The translations under genes were made by a program, and so were the position numbers. 28,867 nucleotides of DNA, taken from a virus. The notes under the pieces were generated by a model. The model was not told the origin of the DNA, ran no database searches, and worked only from the letters and a program-made list of their open reading frames with translations. Below are positions 2,451 to 15,981 of the stretch, one piece after another. The stretch's first letter is position 1; each line of letters starts with the position of its first letter. The stretch is from IMG/VR virus record IMGVR_UViG_3300011115_000756, positions 1 to 28,867 of that record; one strand, 5' to 3'.

Positions 2451-2747
2451 ATGGATAAGAGAAAATTAAACGGCGGTCACAGCACAAAAGCAATGCGTAC
2501 TGACGATAAGCGTTTAATGACTAAGTCGGAGATGCAAGACACTTACGAGAGATTGAAACCTTTTTTACCTGAGGCTATCTTACAACTCGAGGCAGCGATG
2601 CAAGCTGGAGAAAAATGGGCGATTGAATTGTGGTTTAAATACTTCTTTGGAATGCCTAAGCAAACAATTGACCAGCATATAAGTATTGAGAAACCGATTT
2701 TTAATTCCTTAGACTTAGATGTTCCAGAAAACAACGGCTCAGAGTAA
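2451..2747 (+). CDS. terS: Terminase small subunit (probable)
   Basis: A 98-residue protein with the basic N-terminal signature KLNGGHSTKAM (residues 5-15), typical of small DNA-binding terminase subunits in Bacteroidota phages. A helical middle follows (EAILQLEAAMQAGEKWAIE, about 43-61), with WFKYFFGMPKQ at 62-72. It would recognise phage DNA and recruit the large subunit for packaging. Direct overlap (29 nt) with the unmistakable large terminase supports the call. The gene is short for the family but complete in layout. Confidence 0.75.
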   Translation: MDKRKLNGGHSTKAMRTDDKRLMTKSEMQDTYERLKPFLPEAILQLEAAMQAGEKWAIELWFKYFFGMPKQTIDQHISIEKPIFNSLDLDVPENNGSE

Positions 2748-3882
2748 AATTGCCAAACTAAGAAAACGAGTTAGGATTGTGCAAGGTGGGACGAGTAGTT
2801 CCAAGACGTTTTCTATTTTACCGCTTTTAATTACTTACGCAATACAAAATCCATTTTCAGAGATTAGTATTGTTAGTGAGTCAATTCCTCATTTGAAACG
2901 TGGAGCTTTAAAAGACTTCCAAAAGATTATGTTAATGACTGACAATTGGAGAGATAACAACTTCAATCGCTCTTCGCTTAAATATACATTCTCTAATAAT
3001 TCCTATATCGAATTTTTTAGCGTTGACCAACCGGATAAATTACGAGGTGCGAGACGTGATATTTTATTTATAAACGAGTGCAATAATATCGACTTTGAAA
3101 GTTACCAGCAACTCGCAATCCGTACTAAAAAATTTATTTATTTAGACTACAATCCAACGAATGAGTTTTGGGTGCAAACGGAACTCTTAAACGATGAGGA
3201 CTCCGACTTTGTTATTTTAACATATAAAGATAATGAGGCGCTTGATCCGGCAATCGTCAAAGAGATTGAAAAGGCAAAAGACAAAGCGAGTACGTCAACA
3301 TATTGGGCGAACTGGTGGAACGTCTACGGACTAGGTCAACTCGGATCACTCGAGGGAGTAATATTTCAAAACTGGGAGCAAATCGATACCATACCAACTG
3401 AGGCAAAGTTTTTAGGAAGTGGACTTGACTTTGGATACTCTAACGATCCGACAGCGCATATTGCTGTTTATGATTATAATGGTAAGATAATAGTTGACGA
3501 GTTAATTTATAGCACCTCACTTTTAAACTCAGATATAATTCGATTGATGAAACAGGAAAGGACGGCGCCAATTTGGGCAGACTCAGCAGAGCCAAAAAGT
3601 ATTGAAGAGATAAGACGAGCTGGTTACAATATTAAACCAGTAGTCAAAGGAGCTGACTCAATCAATTATGGTATCTCAGTACTTCAGCAAAAGGAAATCT
3701 TAGTTACTAAGTCAAGTACAAACCTAATTAAAGAGTTGAGGAGTTATAGTTGGGACGTTGACAAAACAGGCAAAAAATTAAACCGACCTATTGACGAATA
3801 TAACCACGCTATTGACGCTCTTCGTTACTTTGCAATGATGAGCCTCGCGATAAATAAGTCGAGACGCGTAATAATTACATAA
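2719..3882 (+). CDS. terL: Terminase large subunit
   Basis: A 387-residue ATPase-nuclease that packages DNA into the prohead. The Walker A site is GGTSSSKT (23-30) and the Walker B is DILFINE (114-120, catalytic Glu120). A coupling-type YLDYNPT follows (141-147). The nuclease domain begins at GSGLDFGYSND (233-243, metal-binding Asp237). Further acidic positions lie in IVDELIY (258-264), WADSAEPKS (around 283-291) and EYNHAIDALRYF near the C-terminus. The start at 2719 overlaps the small subunit and gives the conserved lead-in FQKTTAQ. Length and motif order are normal for the family. Confidence 0.95.
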   Translation: MFQKTTAQSKIAKLRKRVRIVQGGTSSSKTFSILPLLITYAIQNPFSEISIVSESIPHLKRGALKDFQKIMLMTDNWRDNNFNRSSLKYTFSNNSYIEFFSVDQPDKLRGARRDILFINECNNIDFESYQQLAIRTKKFIYLDYNPTNEFWVQTELLNDEDSDFVILTYKDNEALDPAIVKEIEKAKDKASTSTYWANWWNVYGLGQLGSLEGVIFQNWEQIDTIPTEAKFLGSGLDFGYSNDPTAHIAVYDYNGKIIVDELIYSTSLLNSDIIRLMKQERTAPIWADSAEPKSIEEIRRAGYNIKPVVKGADSINYGISVLQQKEILVTKSSTNLIKELRSYSWDVDKTGKKLNRPIDEYNHAIDALRYFAMMSLAINKSRRVIIT

Positions 3883-3920: not shown

Positions 3921-4613
3921 ATGAGAGTTATAATTCCAACGGATTTAAAGGACATAAAACTATCTCAATATCTGAGATATTTAAAAGTAGTAAAAGAAAA
4001 CCAGGACGATGAGACGTTTGTCTGTATTCAAATGGTTGCGATATTTTGTAACCTCAGCGTGGCTGAAGTTATGAAAATACCTGTTAACGACTTTACAGAG
4101 ATTATCGAATTATTGGCTAAGGTATTGGATCAAAAACCACAACTCATTAAGACTTTCAAAATGAATGGAACTGAGTTTGGGTTTATTCCTAACTTAGACA
4201 AAATGACAATTGGAGAACATGCAACGATTGACTCGTTACTCGGAACGGATGAGAATTTAAGTTTATTAATGTCGGTAATGTATCGACCAATAACAAAAAA
4301 GATTTATCCATTTTATTCGATTGAGGCATACGACGGAGACGAGAGCAAAGCGGAGTTATTTAACGATGTTAGAATGGATATAGTAATCGGATCAATACTT
4401 TTTTTTTGGAATTTAAGCAAAGAATTATTGAGCAATATCCTATCGCATTTGGAGAGCAAGGCGATGAGGGAGGAGAAATCTCTAGAGGAGGTTTTCACGA
4501 ACGATGGGGATGGTATCAATCATTTGTTAGACTTTCGCGTGAGCTTGGAATCAAGCCTCGAGACGTTGGAGCAGAGCCTCTTCATGAATCACTCACGTTA
4601 TTATCTTACTTAA
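3921..4613 (+). CDS. Tail assembly chaperone, zero-frame product (gpG-like)
   Basis: A 230-residue protein opening the tail operon. The N-terminal part (to about 162) is helical with no catalytic motif. The region around FIPNLDKMTIGEH and MYRPITKKIYPF (about 88-140) resembles a protein family I associate with Bacteroidota phage tail operons. At codons 161-162 the message runs through nine T residues. The zero frame continues for 68 more residues, including a conserved-looking NDGDGIN. A -1 slip would join residue 162 to the overlapping frame and give about 248 residues. This is the arrangement of lambda gpG/gpGT chaperones, placed as expected upstream of the tape measure. Function is inferred from position, overlap and family resemblance. 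Confidence 0.65.
   Translation: MRVIIPTDLKDIKLSQYLRYLKVVKENQDDETFVCIQMVAIFCNLSVAEVMKIPVNDFTEIIELLAKVLDQKPQLIKTFKMNGTEFGFIPNLDKMTIGEHATIDSLLGTDENLSLLMSVMYRPITKKIYPFYSIEAYDGDESKAELFNDVRMDIVIGSILFFWNLSKELLSNILSHLESKAMREEKSLEEVFTNDGDGINHLLDFRVSLESSLETLEQSLFMNHSRYYLT
4399..4407 (+). promoter_or_regulatory. Slippery T9 run, probable -1 frameshift site
   Basis: Nine consecutive T residues. In the chaperone frame they read CTT TTT TTT TGG, so the heptamer T TTT TTT is correctly phased at 4400-4406 for tandem -1 slippage. The downstream frame 4406-4666 is open from exactly this point and has no ATG. A T9 run could also act through transcriptional slippage, where one extra U gives the same frame. Confidence 0.7.
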
Positions 4614-4666
4614 TAGACGAAAGCAAAGAAGAGGCAAAACAAATTAAAAATCACTTTAAAAAATGA
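4406..4666 (+). CDS. Tail assembly chaperone C-terminal extension (gpT-like, -1 frame)
   Basis: An 86-codon frame in the -1 register relative to 3921-4613, overlapping it for 208 nt and running 53 nt beyond. It has no ATG near its beginning; the only independent start would be the TTG at 4406. Its content is protein-like: FHERWGWYQSFVRLSRELG (about 30-48) and a helical charged end (LLSYLIDESKEEAKQIKN). The RWGWY motif followed by a short helical tail recalls the T-part of phage tail chaperones. I read it as expressed by -1 slippage at 4399-4407, yielding a GT-type fusion. It ends in an ATGA overlap with the next gene. Confidence 0.7.
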   Translation: MEFKQRIIEQYPIAFGEQGDEGGEISRGGFHERWGWYQSFVRLSRELGIKPRDVGAEPLHESLTLLSYLIDESKEEAKQIKNHFKK

Positions 4667-5127
4667 GATCATTTTATCAGGCAATAGAATATATTAAAAG
4701 TACGTTGGAAAGCGCACCACTTTTAAATACAATCACTCACGGAACGGATATAATAGACAATGTTAAGAAAAATATATTTCCACTTGCTCACATTAATATA
4801 CTCAGCTCTTCAATTAGCTCAGGAGTTGTCAATTTTACTTTCGAGGTGGCTGTTGTCGATATTCGTAATATGTCAAAGGTAAATATTAAAGATAAATTTC
4901 TCGGCAATGACAACGAGTTGGATAATTTAAACACTTGCCATGCAATCCTCAATTATATGATTACTCAAATGAGATTGCAAAGAAGTGATAACGATATAGA
5001 ATTGCAAAACGATCCAACTTTGCAACCGATATTATTAGCGTTTACAAATGCGCTTGACGGATGGAAGTGTGATATTGAGATAAGCGTGCCGAATAACGAT
5101 TTTACTATTTGCGAAATTGGAGACTAA
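4663..5127 (+). CDS. Putative tail terminator/completion protein
   Basis: A 154-residue protein starting at the ATGA overlap with the chaperone extension. It has an initial helix (RSFYQAIEYIKSTLESAP), then ITHGTDIIDNVKKNIFPLAHI (about 22-42), a beta-strand segment with SGVVNFTFEVAVVDI, and a second helix (HAILNYMITQMRLQ). This alpha-beta pattern and its place between chaperone and gp10-like genes resemble tail-terminator proteins, which cap the tail tube. No diagnostic residue proves it, so the role is an inference from context. Its last 11 nt overlap the next gene. Confidence 0.5.
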   Translation: MRSFYQAIEYIKSTLESAPLLNTITHGTDIIDNVKKNIFPLAHINILSSSISSGVVNFTFEVAVVDIRNMSKVNIKDKFLGNDNELDNLNTCHAILNYMITQMRLQRSDNDIELQNDPTLQPILLAFTNALDGWKCDIEISVPNNDFTICEIGD

Positions 5128-8959: not shown

Positions 8960-9102
8960 TAAACAATATTTTAGAGATGCTCAAACACGCTGAGCAATAC
9001 GAACACAATGAAATAATCGCAACCGCTAAGGGAAAATACGAACTTAAAAAAAACTATTTACAACAATTTAAAGACTTATTAAAATGGCGATTGAAAAAGT
9101 AA
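8956..9102 (+). CDS. Small helical protein before tape measure, 48 aa
   Basis: A 48-residue frame starting in an ATGA overlap with the large tail protein and running 19 nt into the tape measure gene. The protein begins MINNILEMLKHAEQYEHN and ends in a basic helix (LLKWRLKK). It looks all-helical and charged. Position and coupling suggest a tail-operon protein, but no family is recognised. Confidence 0.55.
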   Translation: MINNILEMLKHAEQYEHNEIIATAKGKYELKKNYLQQFKDLLKWRLKK

Positions 9103-10973
9103 TTGACATAAACATACAAGGCAACGCAGACGAGGCGGTTGGGAGTTTAAAATCACAATTAAGACAGGCTCAAGCTGAGGTCGCTGTTTTATCCGATAAG
9201 TTTGGAGTTACTTCAGTCGAGGCAGCGAATGCCGCTAAGAAAGCCGCTGAGTTAAAGGACAAAATCGCAGACGCTAAAAATTTAACGGATGCCTTTAATC
9301 CTGACGCTAAATTTAAGGCGTTAAGTTCGTCTTTGGCTGGAGTTGCTGGAGGTTTTGCAGCTGTTCAAGGCGCTCAAGCGTTATTTGGTGGGCAATCCAA
9401 AGAGGTAGAGCAAACGCTTTTAAAAGTTCAAAGCGCAATGGCGTTGTCTCAAGGCTTACAAACAATTGGCGAGAGCGTTGACTCATTCAAACAATTGGCA
9501 GCCGTTGCGAAGTCTTATTCAATAGTACAAAAATTAGTCACAGCCGGTCAGTGGTTATGGAATGCGGCTATTATGGCAAATCCAATCGGTGCGATTGTAG
9601 CTGGAATTGTGGCGTTAATTGCAGCAGGAGTTGCGCTTGTTAATTATTTTAAAGAAAGCTCAGCAGCAGCCGCTAAAAATACGGCAGCCGTTGACGCGAA
9701 TAAGAAAGCCTTAGACAATCAAACCAAAACTTTAGAGCGTAATAATTCCGAGCTACAAAATAAACAAAATCAGGAGCTAGCAATGGCGAAAGCGTCAGGA
9801 GCGAGTGCGGACTCAATTAGAGCGTTAGAAATTAAATTGATTGATGAGAAAATTGCTTATGAGAAATCGGCTAGAGCGATTGCGTTTAATACTTACGAAA
9901 AAAATAAGAATTATTTAGCGTCTTTGAAGTCGGCTGGAGCGGATGAGGAGTTGATTAAAAAACAACAGGAGACACTAAACAAATCAATTTTAGATTATAA
10001 CAAACAAAATCAAAACGTACAAAAAGCCTTTGACGAAAAAAGAGATATTCAAAATCGTCACCAGGTTGAAATATTACAATCGCAAACCAATCACAATAAA
10101 GAGGTAGCCGATAAAAATAAAGAGGCTGCGACAAAAGCAAAAGAGGAGGCAGATGCAGCAGCAAAGAAAAAAGCCGAAGACAAAAAGAAATTTGACGAAG
10201 AGACTCAAAAAGGAATTGAAGACTTAAATAAAAGTCAAGCAGAGGCAGAGAAAAAAAGACAGGAAGACGCTCAAAAAATTATTGACGATTTAGCTCAAAG
10301 TCAAGAAACTCCAACTCAAAAACTCAATAGAGAATACGAGGAGAAAAAAGCTATTTTAGAGGCAGCTGGTAAAAGTACTTTTGAACTTGAAATGCAACAC
10401 AATTCAGATTTAGAAAATTTGGACGCTGAGGCAAAAGCTAAAAAGAAAAAATCCGATGAGGATCAAGGAGCGGCAGAAGTTGAAATTGCTAAAAAAACAG
10501 CAGCAGCAAAGCAAGCCCTATTCGCTAAAACTTCCGAAACGTTAAGCAAAGGCGCTGACTTATTGGGTAAAAATACGGCAGCTGGAAAAGCAATGGCAGC
10601 GGCAGCCGCTTTGATTAATACGTATCAAGGTATAACGGCAGAGCTTGCAACCAAAACCGTCACTCCTTTTGAAATTGGATTGAAAATTGCCAACGTTGCT
10701 ATAATCGCAGCGACAGGATTTAAAGCGGTACAGGATATCGTATCAGTTCAAATTCCTGGCGGAGGTGGTGGCGGTGGAGGTGGCGCTCAAGGTGGTAGCG
10801 CTCCAAGTATGACCGCTCCGAGTTTCAACACGGTTGGATCTAGCTCAACAAATCAACTTGCTCAGACAATTGGAGAGCAATCACAAACTCCGATTAAGAG
10901 CTACGTTGTAGCCTCTGACGTATCAACAGCTCAGGCGTTAGATAGGAATATTATATCAAACGCATCGATTTAA
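9084..10973 (+). CDS. Tail tape measure protein
   Basis: A 629-residue protein rich in Ala, Lys, Glu and Gln. Long coiled-coil helices lie at about 20-70 and 200-480. A hydrophobic segment at about 161-188 (AAIMANPIGAIVAGIVALIA) resembles the membrane-spanning part typical of tape measures. A glycine run begins near residue 558 and is followed by a Ser/Thr/Gln-rich tail. It sets tail length and is ejected with DNA. With the usual ~0.15 nm per residue it would give a tail of about 95 nm, an estimate only. It is the last gene of the tail operon; an AT-rich hairpin follows. Confidence 0.88.
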   Translation: MAIEKVIDINIQGNADEAVGSLKSQLRQAQAEVAVLSDKFGVTSVEAANAAKKAAELKDKIADAKNLTDAFNPDAKFKALSSSLAGVAGGFAAVQGAQALFGGQSKEVEQTLLKVQSAMALSQGLQTIGESVDSFKQLAAVAKSYSIVQKLVTAGQWLWNAAIMANPIGAIVAGIVALIAAGVALVNYFKESSAAAAKNTAAVDANKKALDNQTKTLERNNSELQNKQNQELAMAKASGASADSIRALEIKLIDEKIAYEKSARAIAFNTYEKNKNYLASLKSAGADEELIKKQQETLNKSILDYNKQNQNVQKAFDEKRDIQNRHQVEILQSQTNHNKEVADKNKEAATKAKEEADAAAKKKAEDKKKFDEETQKGIEDLNKSQAEAEKKRQEDAQKIIDDLAQSQETPTQKLNREYEEKKAILEAAGKSTFELEMQHNSDLENLDAEAKAKKKKSDEDQGAAEVEIAKKTAAAKQALFAKTSETLSKGADLLGKNTAAGKAMAAAAALINTYQGITAELATKTVTPFEIGLKIANVAIIAATGFKAVQDIVSVQIPGGGGGGGGGAQGGSAPSMTAPSFNTVGSSSTNQLAQTIGEQSQTPIKSYVVASDVSTAQALDRNIISNASI

Positions 10974-11250: not shown

Positions 11251-12363
11251 ATGGAGACTTACAAAGTTTTATTTAACGAACAAGAAAACGAGGGAGTTTA
11301 TGCAATCTCGTTAGTTTCAGATCCAGCGATTGAGTCTAATTTTATTTCACTTTCAAAAAATAAAGAAATCAAATTAGCTACAATAAATGAGGAACAAAGA
11401 ATTTTAGTTGGACCAGTATTAATTCCGGATCAATTAATTTATCGTAATCAGGACGGACACGAATATAATATTATGTTCCCAAAAGAAACGATTAAACAAG
11501 TTCAACATAATTTTGTACAACAAGGATATCAAAATAATTCAACGATTGAACATTCAGGAAAATCAATTCCAAATGTTACGTTTGTTGAGACTTGGATAAA
11601 AGAGGATGAAGTACACGACAAATCTGTTTTATACGGATTTAGTGAGCCAGTAGGTACGTTATTTGGTTTAATGAAAGTTAATAACGACGAGATTTGGAAC
11701 GACTACATTAAGACTGGCAAAGTTAAAGGATTTTCGATTGATGGAGTCTTTGACATGGAGAAAGTAAATTTAAAAACAGAAATTAATATGAATTTAGAAA
11801 CTATCGTTAATGCGATAAAAGAGGGTTTCGCATCGGTAAAATTATCGAACGAGGCTGAGCAAGTTGAAGTTATTGAAACTATCGAAGTTTCAATGATGAC
11901 GATGATGCTAAAAGATGGTGTTACCATTTTAGAGGCTGAGGCTTTTGAGGCTGGAAAATCAGTTATGATTGTAGCTGAAAATGGCGACAAAGTTCCAGCT
12001 CCAATTGGAGAGCACGAACTTGAAGACGGAAGAATTTTAGTAATTACCGAAGAGGGTAAAATTGCTGAAATTAAAGACGCAATGGTTGAAGAAGAAACTC
12101 CAGACGCAGCTCCGGCTGAGGCTGAGGCTGTGGAAATGTCAACTGAGGAAATGATAAAAGCTATCGTTACCAATATGAGCGTTGAAGTATCAAAACAAAT
12201 TGAGGCAATTCGTACCGAATTAAGCGCTCAAATTGCTGAGGTAAAAACTACTCAAGTTGAGGTAAAAGCGTCAACAAAAGCAAAGCCTGAAGTTGCTGAA
12301 ACTTCAACAAAAAATGTGAAACTAACTAGATCACAAAAAATATTAAATAACTTAAAAAATTAA
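11251..12363 (+). CDS. XkdF-like prohead protease fused to scaffold domain
   Basis: A 370-residue protein with two parts. Residues 1-175 resemble the XkdF-type phage serine protease: YAISLVSDPAIESNF (17-31), RILVGPVLIPD (50-60), a histidine in STIEHSGKS (101), WIKEDEVHDKS (115-125) and GFSIDGVFD (160-168, candidate Ser162). Residues 180-370 are Glu/Ala/Lys-rich with an acidic linker and coiled-coil helices, as in scaffolding domains, ending in a basic tail (KLTRSQKILNNLKN). It would drive capsid assembly and maturation. An in-frame ATG at 11788 (Met180) sits at the domain joint and could give a free scaffold (inference). The capsid gene follows at 10 nt. Confidence 0.8.
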   Translation: METYKVLFNEQENEGVYAISLVSDPAIESNFISLSKNKEIKLATINEEQRILVGPVLIPDQLIYRNQDGHEYNIMFPKETIKQVQHNFVQQGYQNNSTIEHSGKSIPNVTFVETWIKEDEVHDKSVLYGFSEPVGTLFGLMKVNNDEIWNDYIKTGKVKGFSIDGVFDMEKVNLKTEINMNLETIVNAIKEGFASVKLSNEAEQVEVIETIEVSMMTMMLKDGVTILEAEAFEAGKSVMIVAENGDKVPAPIGEHELEDGRILVITEEGKIAEIKDAMVEEETPDAAPAEAEAVEMSTEEMIKAIVTNMSVEVSKQIEAIRTELSAQIAEVKTTQVEVKASTKAKPEVAETSTKNVKLTRSQKILNNLKN

Positions 12364-12373
12364 ATTTTAAAAA

Positions 12374-13273
12374 ATGGCTACAACTACAAATGTAAGTTCA
12401 AACTACAACGGAACGGCTGCCGGTGCAATTATCGGTCAAGCGTTCAAAACGATTGATACAATCGAAAAAGGTGCGGTAACAATCGCTGAGAATGTAAACT
12501 TTAAATTGTCTTTGCGTAAAATCGCTTATACTGACGGAACAACTGCTTACACTTGCGGTTTTGCTCCAGCTGGTACAATCGTATTAAACGAAAATACTAT
12601 CGAGCCTTTCAAATTCAAAAATGATTTTGATGTTTGTAAAGAAGATTTTAGACAAACATGGTCTGACGGAATTATGGGTGGAGGAGCTGCTAACGCAACT
12701 GCACCAAGCGACATAATGGACGCAATCCAAGCTGAGGTTTTAGGAGCTATCGGTGAAAAATTAGAGTCTGACATTTGGACTTCTAGCGCTAACTTCGACG
12801 GATTCTTAACTTTGTTCGCTGCTGACGGAGACGTTATTAAGCCAACTGCTGACGCTGCTGTTACTGAGGCTAACGTATTAAGCAAATATTTGAAACCAGC
12901 TTTAAACGGAGTGCCTGTTGCTTTGAGAAATAAAGAGTTAGTAATTGCTGTATCTCCAGACGTTGCTCAGGCTTACGCTTTTTACTTATCTACTCAAGGG
13001 ATTGTTTATGGAATGGGAAATACTGATTTTGCTTTGGCATTTGGACGTCACACGTTAACAGTATTAAACGGATTACCAAGTAATTCAGTTGTTATCTACG
13101 AAAAGAAAAACTTAGTTTTTGCTACTGGATTAACAGCAGATCACAACCAAGTTGCACTTGTTGACGAAGACGAAATCGGTTTATTGACTGGTAAAGTTAG
13201 AGGAAAAGTAGTTTACAACGTAGGTGTTGGATACTACAACGCAGAGGAGATCGTTTGGTTATCTTTAGACTAA
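12374..13273 (+). CDS. Major capsid protein (HK97-fold, probable)
   Basis: A 299-residue protein directly after the protease-scaffold gene, the usual place of the major capsid. It is rich in Ala, Gly, Val and Asp without catalytic motifs. A helical N-terminal part contains IIGQAFKTIDTIEKG; an IQAEVLGAIGEKLESDIW helix (about 118-135) and a C-terminal beta segment (GKVRGKVVYNVGVGYYN) fit an HK97-type subunit. Codons are less AT-rich than the neighbours (many GCT, GAC, GGA), as expected for a very highly expressed gene. A strong terminator follows. Confidence 0.82.
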   Translation: MATTTNVSSNYNGTAAGAIIGQAFKTIDTIEKGAVTIAENVNFKLSLRKIAYTDGTTAYTCGFAPAGTIVLNENTIEPFKFKNDFDVCKEDFRQTWSDGIMGGGAANATAPSDIMDAIQAEVLGAIGEKLESDIWTSSANFDGFLTLFAADGDVIKPTADAAVTEANVLSKYLKPALNGVPVALRNKELVIAVSPDVAQAYAFYLSTQGIVYGMGNTDFALAFGRHTLTVLNGLPSNSVVIYEKKNLVFATGLTADHNQVALVDEDEIGLLTGKVRGKVVYNVGVGYYNAEEIVWLSLD

Positions 13274-13288
13274 TTAATTAACAAAAAT

Positions 13289-13315
13289 ACCGCTCATTAA
13301 GTTGGGCGGTTTTTA
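13289..13315 (+). terminator. Rho-independent terminator after capsid gene
   Basis: Stem ACCGCTC (13289-13295) with GGGCGGT (13304-13310), one G-U pair, 8-nt loop, then a T-run at 13310-13314. It is GC-rich for this genome. It stands between the capsid and tube genes and probably sets their relative expression. Confidence 0.8.
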
Positions 13316-13334
13316 ATAAAAAAATCACAAAAAT

Positions 13335-13859
13335 ATGTCTTGTCTTATATCAAAAGGAAAACTTTTAGGATGCAAGGATCAAAGAGGTGGTTACAAAAAT
13401 TTATACTTCGCCAATTATGACGATTATAGTTTTGTAATTGCAGCGCACCAAGTTACAGACTTGGGATCTTTGGATGAAGTTTTCAAATACGAAGTTAAAG
13501 CGACAACAAATACGTTGACAGAAACTGGAACAAGCTCACAGGATAACGGAACATTTTTAAACGCTCAATCGTTAGCGGTTACACTTCCTAAATTATCGGC
13601 TGACTTGCAAGGTCAAATTCAATTAATTTGCGCGTCTCGTCCTTACGTTTTCGTAGAGGATTACAATGGGAATATTCTTTTAGTTGGTGCAGCTAACGGA
13701 ACAATGGCAAACTGCACAAAAGTAACCGGAGGAGCTGGAGCCGATTTATCAGGTTTCACTTTGACAATTACTGCTGAAGAGAGCAATTTAAGTCCATTTT
13801 TGGACTCAGCAACTAAGAGCGCATTATACGCTTTGGTTAGCAACTCGGTTGTTTCCTAA
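13335..13859 (+). CDS. Probable major tail tube protein
   Basis: A 174-residue protein with a beta-rich, Gly/Ala/Thr-heavy composition. It begins MSCLISKGKLLGCKDQRGG and contains FKYEVKATTNTLTETG (about 50-65), DNGTFLNAQSLAVTLPKLS, FVEDYNGNILLVGAANG (about 106-122) and DLSGFTLTITAEESNLSPF. This pattern matches a widespread structural protein of Bacteroidota phages whose strand layout fits a tail tube subunit. Terminators on both sides point to separate, strong expression. No direct promoter is seen in the 61-nt gap, so it probably relies on read-through from the capsid unit. The tube assignment is inferred. Confidence 0.55.
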   Translation: MSCLISKGKLLGCKDQRGGYKNLYFANYDDYSFVIAAHQVTDLGSLDEVFKYEVKATTNTLTETGTSSQDNGTFLNAQSLAVTLPKLSADLQGQIQLICASRPYVFVEDYNGNILLVGAANGTMANCTKVTGGAGADLSGFTLTITAEESNLSPFLDSATKSALYALVSNSVVS

Positions 13860-13879
13860 TTTTCTTTCATAGTTTGTTT

Positions 13880-13908
13880 AAAAAAAAGTCACTTCGGTGG
13901 CTTTTTTT
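13880..13908 (+). terminator. Rho-independent terminator with TTCG loop
   Basis: Stem AAAAAGTCAC-type arm (13880-13892), loop TTCG (13893-13896), and GTGGC followed by seven T (13897-13908); one T-G pair. The A-run pairs with the T-run, so it can work on both strands. It closes the capsid/tube unit; bipartite element copy 4 begins 4 nt later. Confidence 0.85.
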
Positions 13909-13911
13909 GTT

Positions 13912-13940
13912 ACAAAACGTTATTTTTAAGTTATATATAT
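13912..13940 (+). promoter_or_regulatory. Bipartite ACAAAA / AAGTTATA element, copy 4
   Basis: ACAAAA at 13912-13917 and AAGTTATA at 13928-13935, ATG 13 nt after the second box starts. The stretch TTTGTTACAAAA is shared with copy 1, and the 3' half is identical to copy 2. It lies directly between a strong terminator and the portal-lysis operon, exactly where a promoter is required. Confidence 0.7.
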
Positions 13941-14249
13941 ATGTGGATATTTAATTTAACAGCTCCTTACCAATTCAAATGCATTCCTCGTTATTATAAT
14001 GAGGGCGAATTGACGTTTTATTTAAGGGATGAGCTAAGAGATACGACGACAGAGATTGAAATTTTAGAGACAATTTACCAAAATAATATTTTAAAATTAG
14101 TTTTTGAAGAGCCAATTTTAAAAGAGGGACAAAGTTTTGAGATTACAATCAATGAGGATGACAATTTAATATATAGAGGCAAGGCATTTTCAACAGCTCA
14201 AACAGACCTCGAAAATTTTGAACTTAATAAAGGAGTTCTAAAAGTATAA
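13941..14249 (+). CDS. Hypothetical structural protein, 102 aa
   Basis: First gene of the portal operon. The 102-residue protein alternates short beta strands with acidic turns (GELTFYLRDELRDTTTEIE, ILKLVFEEPILKEGQSFEI). It has no signal peptide or membrane segment. It ends 4 nt before the portal gene. The composition fits a small beta-sandwich neck or tail part. I recall similar short proteins beside portal genes in Flavobacterium phages, but no function is known to me. Confidence 0.6.
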   Translation: MWIFNLTAPYQFKCIPRYYNEGELTFYLRDELRDTTTEIEILETIYQNNILKLVFEEPILKEGQSFEITINEDDNLIYRGKAFSTAQTDLENFELNKGVLKV

Positions 14250-14253
14250 ATTT

Positions 14254-15981
14254 ATGGAGAAATTACAAATTATAAACCTATCAAACTACATTCGCCCAGA
14301 AATTAGAGAGGTGAGCGGTAAAAAGTGGGTTTTAAATGGAGATAAAAATTCATTTTATCAAATTATTATTGACGCTTACAATGGATCGCCAACTAACTCA
14401 GCGATAATTGACTCATATAGTCATTTTATTTATGGTAAGGGTTTGACTTCAAATGGCAAATCACAAAAACCGTCTGAGTGGGCTGCGATTATGTCGTTAG
14501 TTTCTAAAAAAGATTTACGAAAAATTTGTAAGGATTTTGAAATGTTTGGCGAGGCATCGCTTGAGGTAAAATATATAAATAATAAAATCCAAAGATGCTT
14601 TCATATAGCAAAGCAAAGGATTGCTCCTGAGGTTGCAAATGAAGACGGAGATATTACAGGATATTATTATAGTTATGATTTTTCGAATGTAACCAAATAC
14701 AAGCCAGAGCGTTTCGATGCTTTTGGTTATGGTGAGGGAATAGGCGAACGCTCTGAAATTTATATAATTCGTGATTACCAGGTTGGACAATTTTATTATA
14801 GCAATCCGAGTTATGTCTCAGGGATTTCATGGGCTAAAATGGAGGAGGAAATAAGCAACTACTCAATCAATCACATTCAAAAAGGTTTGTCATTCGGTCA
14901 TATTATCAATATGAATTGTGGCATCCAAGAAAGCGCAGAGACAATCCAAGAAAATACGAGACAAATTCGCAACCACTTAACAGGATCACAAAACGCTGGA
15001 GCGTTCTTTTTAAATTGGAACGATAATAAAGATAGCGAGATAACAATTTCAGCGCTTGAGGTTTCAGACGCTCACCAGCAATATGATTACTTAAGTAGCG
15101 AGGCTCGTCAACAACTTTGCACGTCTCACAAATTAACGTCTCCAATGTTAGTTGGAATAAAAGACGCAAATGGTTTCAGCTCAAACGCTGACGAAATAAA
15201 AGTGGGTTTTGAGGAATTAATGATAAATGTAATTAGACCAAAACAAGAAATTATTTTGGACGGATTAATGGATATTTTTGCCGTTAACGGAATTACTTTG
15301 GACTTACAATTTGAAAACCTAAGAGGTGAAGAGCAAGCAATTGCAGAAACGCCAATAGTTGCTCCGACTCAATTAGCAAGTCAACACGTTTGTTGCTCAA
15401 AAGACGACAACAGACTCTTAGAAGTTGCGGACGCTCTTATTGAAATGGGCGAAATTGTAAACGAGGACGAGTGGATTGAGATTGATGCAATACCAGTAAC
15501 AAAAGACCTTGAGATTAATGAAATAACTTTAAACTTAGCGAGATCATTTGCAAGTTTCCCAAATGTAACAAGCGAACAAGACACGGAGCTTTTTAAGATA
15601 CGATATTCTTATGAGGGTAGTTTGGGAGCGCAAAGAGATTTTTGTAATAAAATGGTAAGCGCTGGACGTACTTATCGCAAAGAGGATATAACAATCGCTG
15701 AGACAAAAGTTGTCAATCCAGGCTTTGGAGCTGAGGGAGCAGACAATTACTCAATTTGGTTATACAAAGGAGGCGTAAATTGCCAACATTTTTGGATGAG
15801 AAAAATATATTTGCGTAAAAATAACAAACAAATCGGAGTAAACGAGGCTCGAAAAATGATTTTAGACCTAGATCCAGCCGACAGACCTCAAGCAAAATGG
15901 CAAGAGAATGAGATTGAAGTGGCACAAATTGCCTCACAGAGTAACAATTACTGGTCATTAAAACCAAATTATAGACAATAA
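14254..15981 (+). CDS. Portal protein with extra C-terminal domain
   Basis: A 575-residue protein. Residues about 1-370 look like a phage portal: an N-terminal IINLSNYIRPEI, NSAIIDSYSHFIYGKGL (about 48-64), DFEMFGEASLEVKY (about 93-106), the long helix around EEEISNYSINHIQ, and SPMLVGIKDANGFSSNADEIK (about 298-318). After a linker with HVCCSKDDNRLL, a second domain (about 455-560) contains RDFCNKMVSAGRTYRKEDI, NPGFGAEGADNYSIWLYKGG and NCQHFWMRKIYLRK. Its Cys and His residues could bind metal. The portal forms the DNA gate at the capsid vertex. This location, 3' of the capsid and 10 kb from terminase, is unusual. Confidence 0.8.
   Translation: MEKLQIINLSNYIRPEIREVSGKKWVLNGDKNSFYQIIIDAYNGSPTNSAIIDSYSHFIYGKGLTSNGKSQKPSEWAAIMSLVSKKDLRKICKDFEMFGEASLEVKYINNKIQRCFHIAKQRIAPEVANEDGDITGYYYSYDFSNVTKYKPERFDAFGYGEGIGERSEIYIIRDYQVGQFYYSNPSYVSGISWAKMEEEISNYSINHIQKGLSFGHIINMNCGIQESAETIQENTRQIRNHLTGSQNAGAFFLNWNDNKDSEITISALEVSDAHQQYDYLSSEARQQLCTSHKLTSPMLVGIKDANGFSSNADEIKVGFEELMINVIRPKQEIILDGLMDIFAVNGITLDLQFENLRGEEQAIAETPIVAPTQLASQHVCCSKDDNRLLEVADALIEMGEIVNEDEWIEIDAIPVTKDLEINEITLNLARSFASFPNVTSEQDTELFKIRYSYEGSLGAQRDFCNKMVSAGRTYRKEDITIAETKVVNPGFGAEGADNYSIWLYKGGVNCQHFWMRKIYLRKNNKQIGVNEARKMILDLDPADRPQAKWQENEIEVAQIASQSNNYWSLKPNYRQ

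Follow-up and report, generated by a model that had tools for sequence, protein, structure and literature searches.

Among the systems described to date, one of the closest to the locus reported here is the tail chaperone of phage lambda (the G/GT scheme), in which a common N-terminal domain is followed by a -1 frameshift that yields the fusion gpGT, the second domain has no start of its own and the pair lies upstream of the tape measure gene (PMC5009743). The zero frame of lambda stops shortly past the slip; the overlaps of tail-chaperone frameshifts usually span a few codons, and in the SEA-PHAGES training set the mean distance from the slip to the zero-frame stop is 26 nt (PMC10885494). A second point of comparison is gpE/E+E' of P2 (Pfam Phage_TAC_7), whose likeness to the present family is a weak sequence match in the N-domain, below the Pfam cut-off. 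The slippery site of P2 is also T-rich, T TTT TTG, and we know of no description of a long zero-frame overlap or of a T run of at least nine in that phage. Finally, in IS elements, Shigella mxiE/spa13 and Thermus dnaX, a homopolymer of about nine (A9 or T9) gains one extra nucleotide and two frames are thereby joined; RNA evidence exists for those genes, whereas there is none for our family, and no second conserved C-terminus of the length reported below is described for them in the portions of the sources at hand (PMC1088944, PMC5009743).

The DNA analysed here, which we call the window, is the 28,867-nt viral record IMGVR_UViG_3300011115_000756 from IMG/VR, and the features given in the form 3921..4613 lie on its plus strand. 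The zero-frame gene (3921..4613) starts at the ATG at 3921 and encodes 230 amino acids, comprising an N-domain (residues 1-162) and a zero-frame C-terminal tail (residues 163-230); residues 1-169 match phrog_32199 (E 7.8e-21), and the gene is further supported by its homologues. The codons ATA CTT TTT TTT TGG cross a run of nine T residues (4399..4407), which the sequence and the homologues identify as the shift element. An earlier note, made from this sequence alone, had placed the heptamer T TTT TTT in the correct phase within this run, and this proved right: it occupies 4400..4406 in the phase of the zero frame. A -1 slip would make TTG (4406-4408) the next codon, and the -1 segment (4406..4666, 86 codons plus the stop) would then be read as far as the TGA at 4664-4666. 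This segment encodes a C-domain with a KWGWY/RWGWY motif, is conserved in all homologues, and would give a predicted fusion of 162 + 86 = 248 residues. The two product sizes that the note had proposed, 230 and 248 residues, agree with the frame ends at 4613 and 4666, as does its ATGA overlap, in which the next gene (4663..5127, 154 aa) begins at the ATG at 4663 and overlaps the -1 stop. By contrast, the statement that the -1 frame opens precisely at the slip cannot be kept, since the previous stop in that frame (4370..4372) lies upstream and the frame opens 27 nt earlier.

The gene lies directly after the terminase large subunit (2719..3882) and upstream of a tape-measure-like gene (9084..10973; phrog_9483, E 1.4e-12), with four genes intervening. 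The head genes of this phage (an XkdF-like protease and the portal) are found at 11251-15981, downstream of the tail and tape measure genes, and the terminase comes first; this terminase-first, head-after-tail order is unusual for a siphovirus. From the context, the layout and the weak Pfam matches we infer that the pair is probably a tail assembly chaperone. The only recurrent Pfam match was Phage_TAC_7, seen in 7 of 56 members with a best E of 0.004 (0.0011 in another search), always below the Pfam cut-off. AlphaFold models the N-domain with a confidence of about 90 and the -1 domain, which is helical, with 79; Foldseek/VIA retrieved no solved chaperone with this fold, and when either domain was compared by fold with the PDB, nothing usable was matched. 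Because the Pfam matches remain below the cut-off and no solved structure matches well, the chaperone role, and with it the function in tail assembly, has to be regarded as inferred.

We scanned IMG/VR with the zero-frame and -1 proteins of the window and then with profiles, and obtained 384 two-domain loci, 298 of them distinct. Each of the two domains was searched for separately with HMMs on stop-to-stop ORFs, so that an in-frame fusion or any other register would not have escaped notice. In all 298 distinct viral homologues, whose N-domain identity falls to about 26%, the C-domain lies in the -1 register relative to the N-domain, and the same is true of the 4 copies (4/4) found in bacterial genome assemblies. 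Among the viral sequences 252 have T9, 45 have T10 and one has T12; no run shorter than nine was found among the 298, the 4 bacterial copies all have T9, and every homologue in which the heptamer was looked for has T TTT TTT in phase. The family comprises many marine and freshwater phages that are kin to flavobacterial phages. Flavobacterial genome assemblies carry T9 copies, one of which is probably a prophage because its contig is at least 2.6 Mb long, and a genome scan with a single protein returned one Winogradskyella assembly contig. The sole named phage relatives that we found are Nonlabens P12024S and P12024L (Inhavirus), in which genes 38/39 and 40/41 have homologous N- and C-domains and the identical in-phase T9; they differ in having a lambda-like zero-frame tail that extends only 77 nt past the run, and they are annotated as two hypothetical genes, with the frameshift unremarked.

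Homopolymers are prone to errors, and an assembly error or a decaying gene at the run could in principle mimic such a locus. We rejected this explanation, which we consider practically ruled out, on the conservation of register and run across the 298 distinct sequences, which come from many assemblies and are joined by the isolate phages P12024S/L and by the contigs of bacterial genomes; a decaying gene would moreover not be under purifying selection in both frames, as this one is (see below). A few individual copies are interrupted. One close homologue (L001, 522-785) is cut short in the -1 frame by a TAG 47 codons past the slip, keeps its zero frame intact, and is a lone exception; another locus (L305, 3001-3066) has an in-frame TAG at codon 17 of the N-domain; and a copy from a flavobacterial genome assembly (L394, 1483-2124, assembly G205) has T9, a shortened zero-frame tail and one TAG reported within the profile match.

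Could the -1 domain start by itself? The earlier note had described the -1 frame as lacking an ATG; there is indeed none between the upstream stop and the C-domain of the window, but a TTG is present at 4406, at the very end of the run, and could serve as the internal start of a separate gene made without any fusion. The annotation of part of the -1 segment as a gene of its own in the Nonlabens records points the same way. However, this TTG is not constant, being replaced by TTC or TTT in some homologues; no ATG precedes the C-domain in the -1 frame of 227 of 230 homologues; a Shine-Dalgarno (SD)-like sequence is rare (3 of 87 representatives); and an independent gene would not call for the strictly conserved T run and phase. 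We therefore give very little credence to a separate gene. Two viral proteins in BFVD, A0A516L611 (258 aa) and A0A6J7WJY4 (243 aa), are matched by the N-model as well as by the C-model, and may represent natural in-frame fusions.

A distinctive feature of the family is the length of the zero frame beyond the slip. Unlike in lambda, in the window it continues for 206 nt beyond the T9, and this exact length recurs in 66/66 distinct copies of the main clade with an intact -1 frame, whose amino-acid identities to the window extend down to about 68%. The earlier note would have been refuted by homologues that keep only one frame open or that lack a slippery run; put to this test it survived, since the register is -1 and the run at least T9 in 298/298, and the zero-frame tail is long (140 nt or more after the run) in 291 of the 293 homologues whose zero-frame stop is on the contig. 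Considered on its own, the window gives moderate evidence that the zero frame is open beyond chance: random synonymous recoding of the -1 peptide keeps it open with P = 0.003, whereas permutation of the gene's own codons gives a non-significant result (P = 0.09). For the family as a whole, the comparative evidence is overwhelming, and it is on these family-wide tests that the claim rests. At least 50 zero-frame codons are open in 61 of 63 representatives, against 3.2 of 63 (5%) expected under random synonymous recoding of the -1 peptide; under codon permutation for each gene, 6.9 of 63 would be expected to remain open as far as observed, and all 63 do. These counts are not independent, because the sequences are related, a problem that the synonymous test on disjoint pairs lessens.

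That test concerns synonymous divergence in the -1 frame, which is 0.28 within the overlap and 0.64 just past the zero-frame stop; the value after the stop exceeds that of the overlap in 51 of 59 disjoint pairs (Wilcoxon p 1.3e-9, 59 pairs). The ranges are 0.13-0.38 in the overlap and 0.38-0.70 beyond the stop in the short-tail group, and the singly coding N-domain, at 0.41-0.73, is near the latter. Along the gene, the profile stands at 0.27 over the eight codons that precede the zero-frame stop and jumps to 0.68 over the eight that follow it, so that the suppression seen in the family ends at the stop, which in the window lies at 4611..4613. Selection on amino acids was assessed with an OLGenie-like count. 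In the zero frame NN/SN is 0.46-0.56, compared with 0.75-0.87 in the single-coding control, a hypothetical frame within the N-domain; as plain NN/SN falls below 1 even without selection, only the difference from this control was used. In the -1 frame NN/NS is 0.18-0.44. Purifying selection is thus seen in both frames, the outcome of the codon-level comparison across homologues that the note had suggested as a check, with the zero-frame tail under weaker constraint than the -1 frame. RNA structure was rejected as a cause of the synonymous suppression, since there is no excess of structure in the overlap and the suppression stops at the zero-frame stop.

These results bear on whether the -1 fusion alone is of consequence and the long zero frame is a tolerated by-product that could end anywhere. 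The weaker constraint on the tail fits such a by-product, as do its low AlphaFold pLDDT (about 54-75; the tail starts with a long helix) and the short tail of the Nonlabens phages. Yet a by-product would not explain why synonymous change in the -1 frame is suppressed as far as the zero-frame stop and free beyond it, why the zero frame is open far past expectation, or why many members share a conserved SL.EIL.DLKISLN at the end of the tail. On the comparative data this reading is largely refuted, and we consider it very improbable. One argument for the tail had to be abandoned: the zero-frame pattern NDGDGIN, put forward in the earlier note as protein-like in its own right, is largely a shadow of the invariant WGWY of the -1 frame (AAT GGG GAT GGT ATC mirrors TGG GGA TGG TAT) and is variable in homologues, so it was discarded as independent evidence. 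The dual coding proposed in that note is nevertheless confirmed and strengthened across the family, the doubly read DNA being about 205 nt (4406..4610). We are confident that the locus is truly dual-coding and that a -1 fusion is made, a conclusion drawn from sequence comparison, with no protein or RNA data for any member.

How the frame shifts is less certain. The note had named transcriptional slippage as an alternative; on the run length of at least nine and the failure to find stimulators we rate it likelier than ribosomal slippage, an inference that has not been demonstrated. Homopolymers of 9 A or T are slippage-prone and those of 8 are not, a threshold seen in many bacterial genomes (PMC1088944), and the family minimum of 9 meets this threshold of about nine in 298/298. 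Four sequences that have a C in place of a T on the 3' side of the run carry an extra T on its 5' side. TTC makes up 22% of the Phe codons of the N-domain and is never used in the T run. Other T runs of at least nine in the flanks occur once inside a gene and 26 times outside genes; the single case, the sole other T9 within an ORF of at least 80 codons in the flanks examined, lies in L032 about 3777 nt upstream of the slip site, and may be another slippage gene or chance. Over 87 representatives, no excess of downstream RNA structure was detected at the site (pseudoknots being outside the model), and an SD-like sequence just upstream was found in only 3 of the 87. Because the run is never shorter than nine, lost T residues are compensated on the 5' side, TTC is absent, T9 is rare inside genes and no stimulators were found, we favour, with reserve and without RNA data, slippage by RNA polymerase over slippage by the ribosome alone.

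The same two products would also result if the ribosome slipped by -1 on T TTT TTT in the classical manner of lambda G/GT and P2 E/E', and this remains a real possibility, if one that we would not put first. Frameshift stimulators, such as an upstream SD or a downstream structure, are common but not universal, and -1 sites can function without them. The perfect heptamer T TTT TTT stands in phase in all homologues inspected for it (with the run at least nine in 298), U_UU.Y ranks with the better -1 tetramers of E. coli (PMC4066793), and the tail-chaperone frameshifts studied to date are ribosomal (PMC5009743). What this mechanism leaves unexplained is the strictness of the run: the heptamer requires 7 T and its last base is free, yet runs of 7 or 8 T and T TTT TTC are never seen, in spite of the frequency of TTC elsewhere in the N-domain, and neither enriched downstream structure nor more than the rare upstream SD-like sequence accompanies the site. 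Ribosomal slippage, or a mixture of both mechanisms, is not excluded, and the run may be kept in part by the FF/L residues of both frames, a constraint at the protein level.

A stop in the +1 frame, the TAA at 4414..4416 just past the T9 run of the window, lies 2-5 codons from the start of the run in 230 of the 230 homologues tested, so that any +1 product would end at once. This raises the tentative idea of a three-way output by slippage of RNA polymerase, in which U9 transcripts would give the N-domain with the zero-frame tail, U10 the N-domain with the -1 domain, and U8 or U11 the bare N-domain by way of the +1 stop; the stop may, however, not be selected at all but be a by-effect of the other frames (TTT AGR/AAR in the -1 frame, TTA GGN in the zero frame).

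Our best explanation of the whole, to which we lean without protein or RNA evidence, combines two overprinted C-terminal ends, a transcriptional slip and a lambda-like chaperone. Ordinary reading would give the N-domain (about 162 aa) with the zero-frame tail, 230 aa in all, and a one-base slip at T9 the N-domain with the 86-aa -1 C-domain, 248 aa, selection keeping both C-ends on the same 205 nt, as the sequence comparison shows. In some of the transcripts RNA polymerase would insert a single additional U at the T run, and ordinary translation of these would yield the fusion. The short form would be abundant and bind the tape measure protein, as does lambda gpG, and the rarer fusion would recruit the tail-tube protein, as does gpGT. 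Frame slips in tail chaperones are known; what is unusual is a doubly used stretch of this length and a T run of this strictness, the shift element being, in contrast to that of lambda, an invariant homopolymer of at least 9 T.

Gene callers miss such a dual-frame gene: in the known relatives it appears either as hypothetical proteins or split into two genes. A frameshift predictor whose training set had short distances from slip to stop would tend to overlook it as well. The family offers a clear case, with strong statistical support, in which about 200 nt of a DNA phage carry two conserved, overprinted protein ends. If the slip is transcriptional, the ratio of the tail-assembly isoforms would be set by RNA polymerase and not by the ribosome; and if the three-way output is true, the phage would have a tail chaperone whose product ratio is fixed at transcription and whose two C-terminal domains are overprinted.
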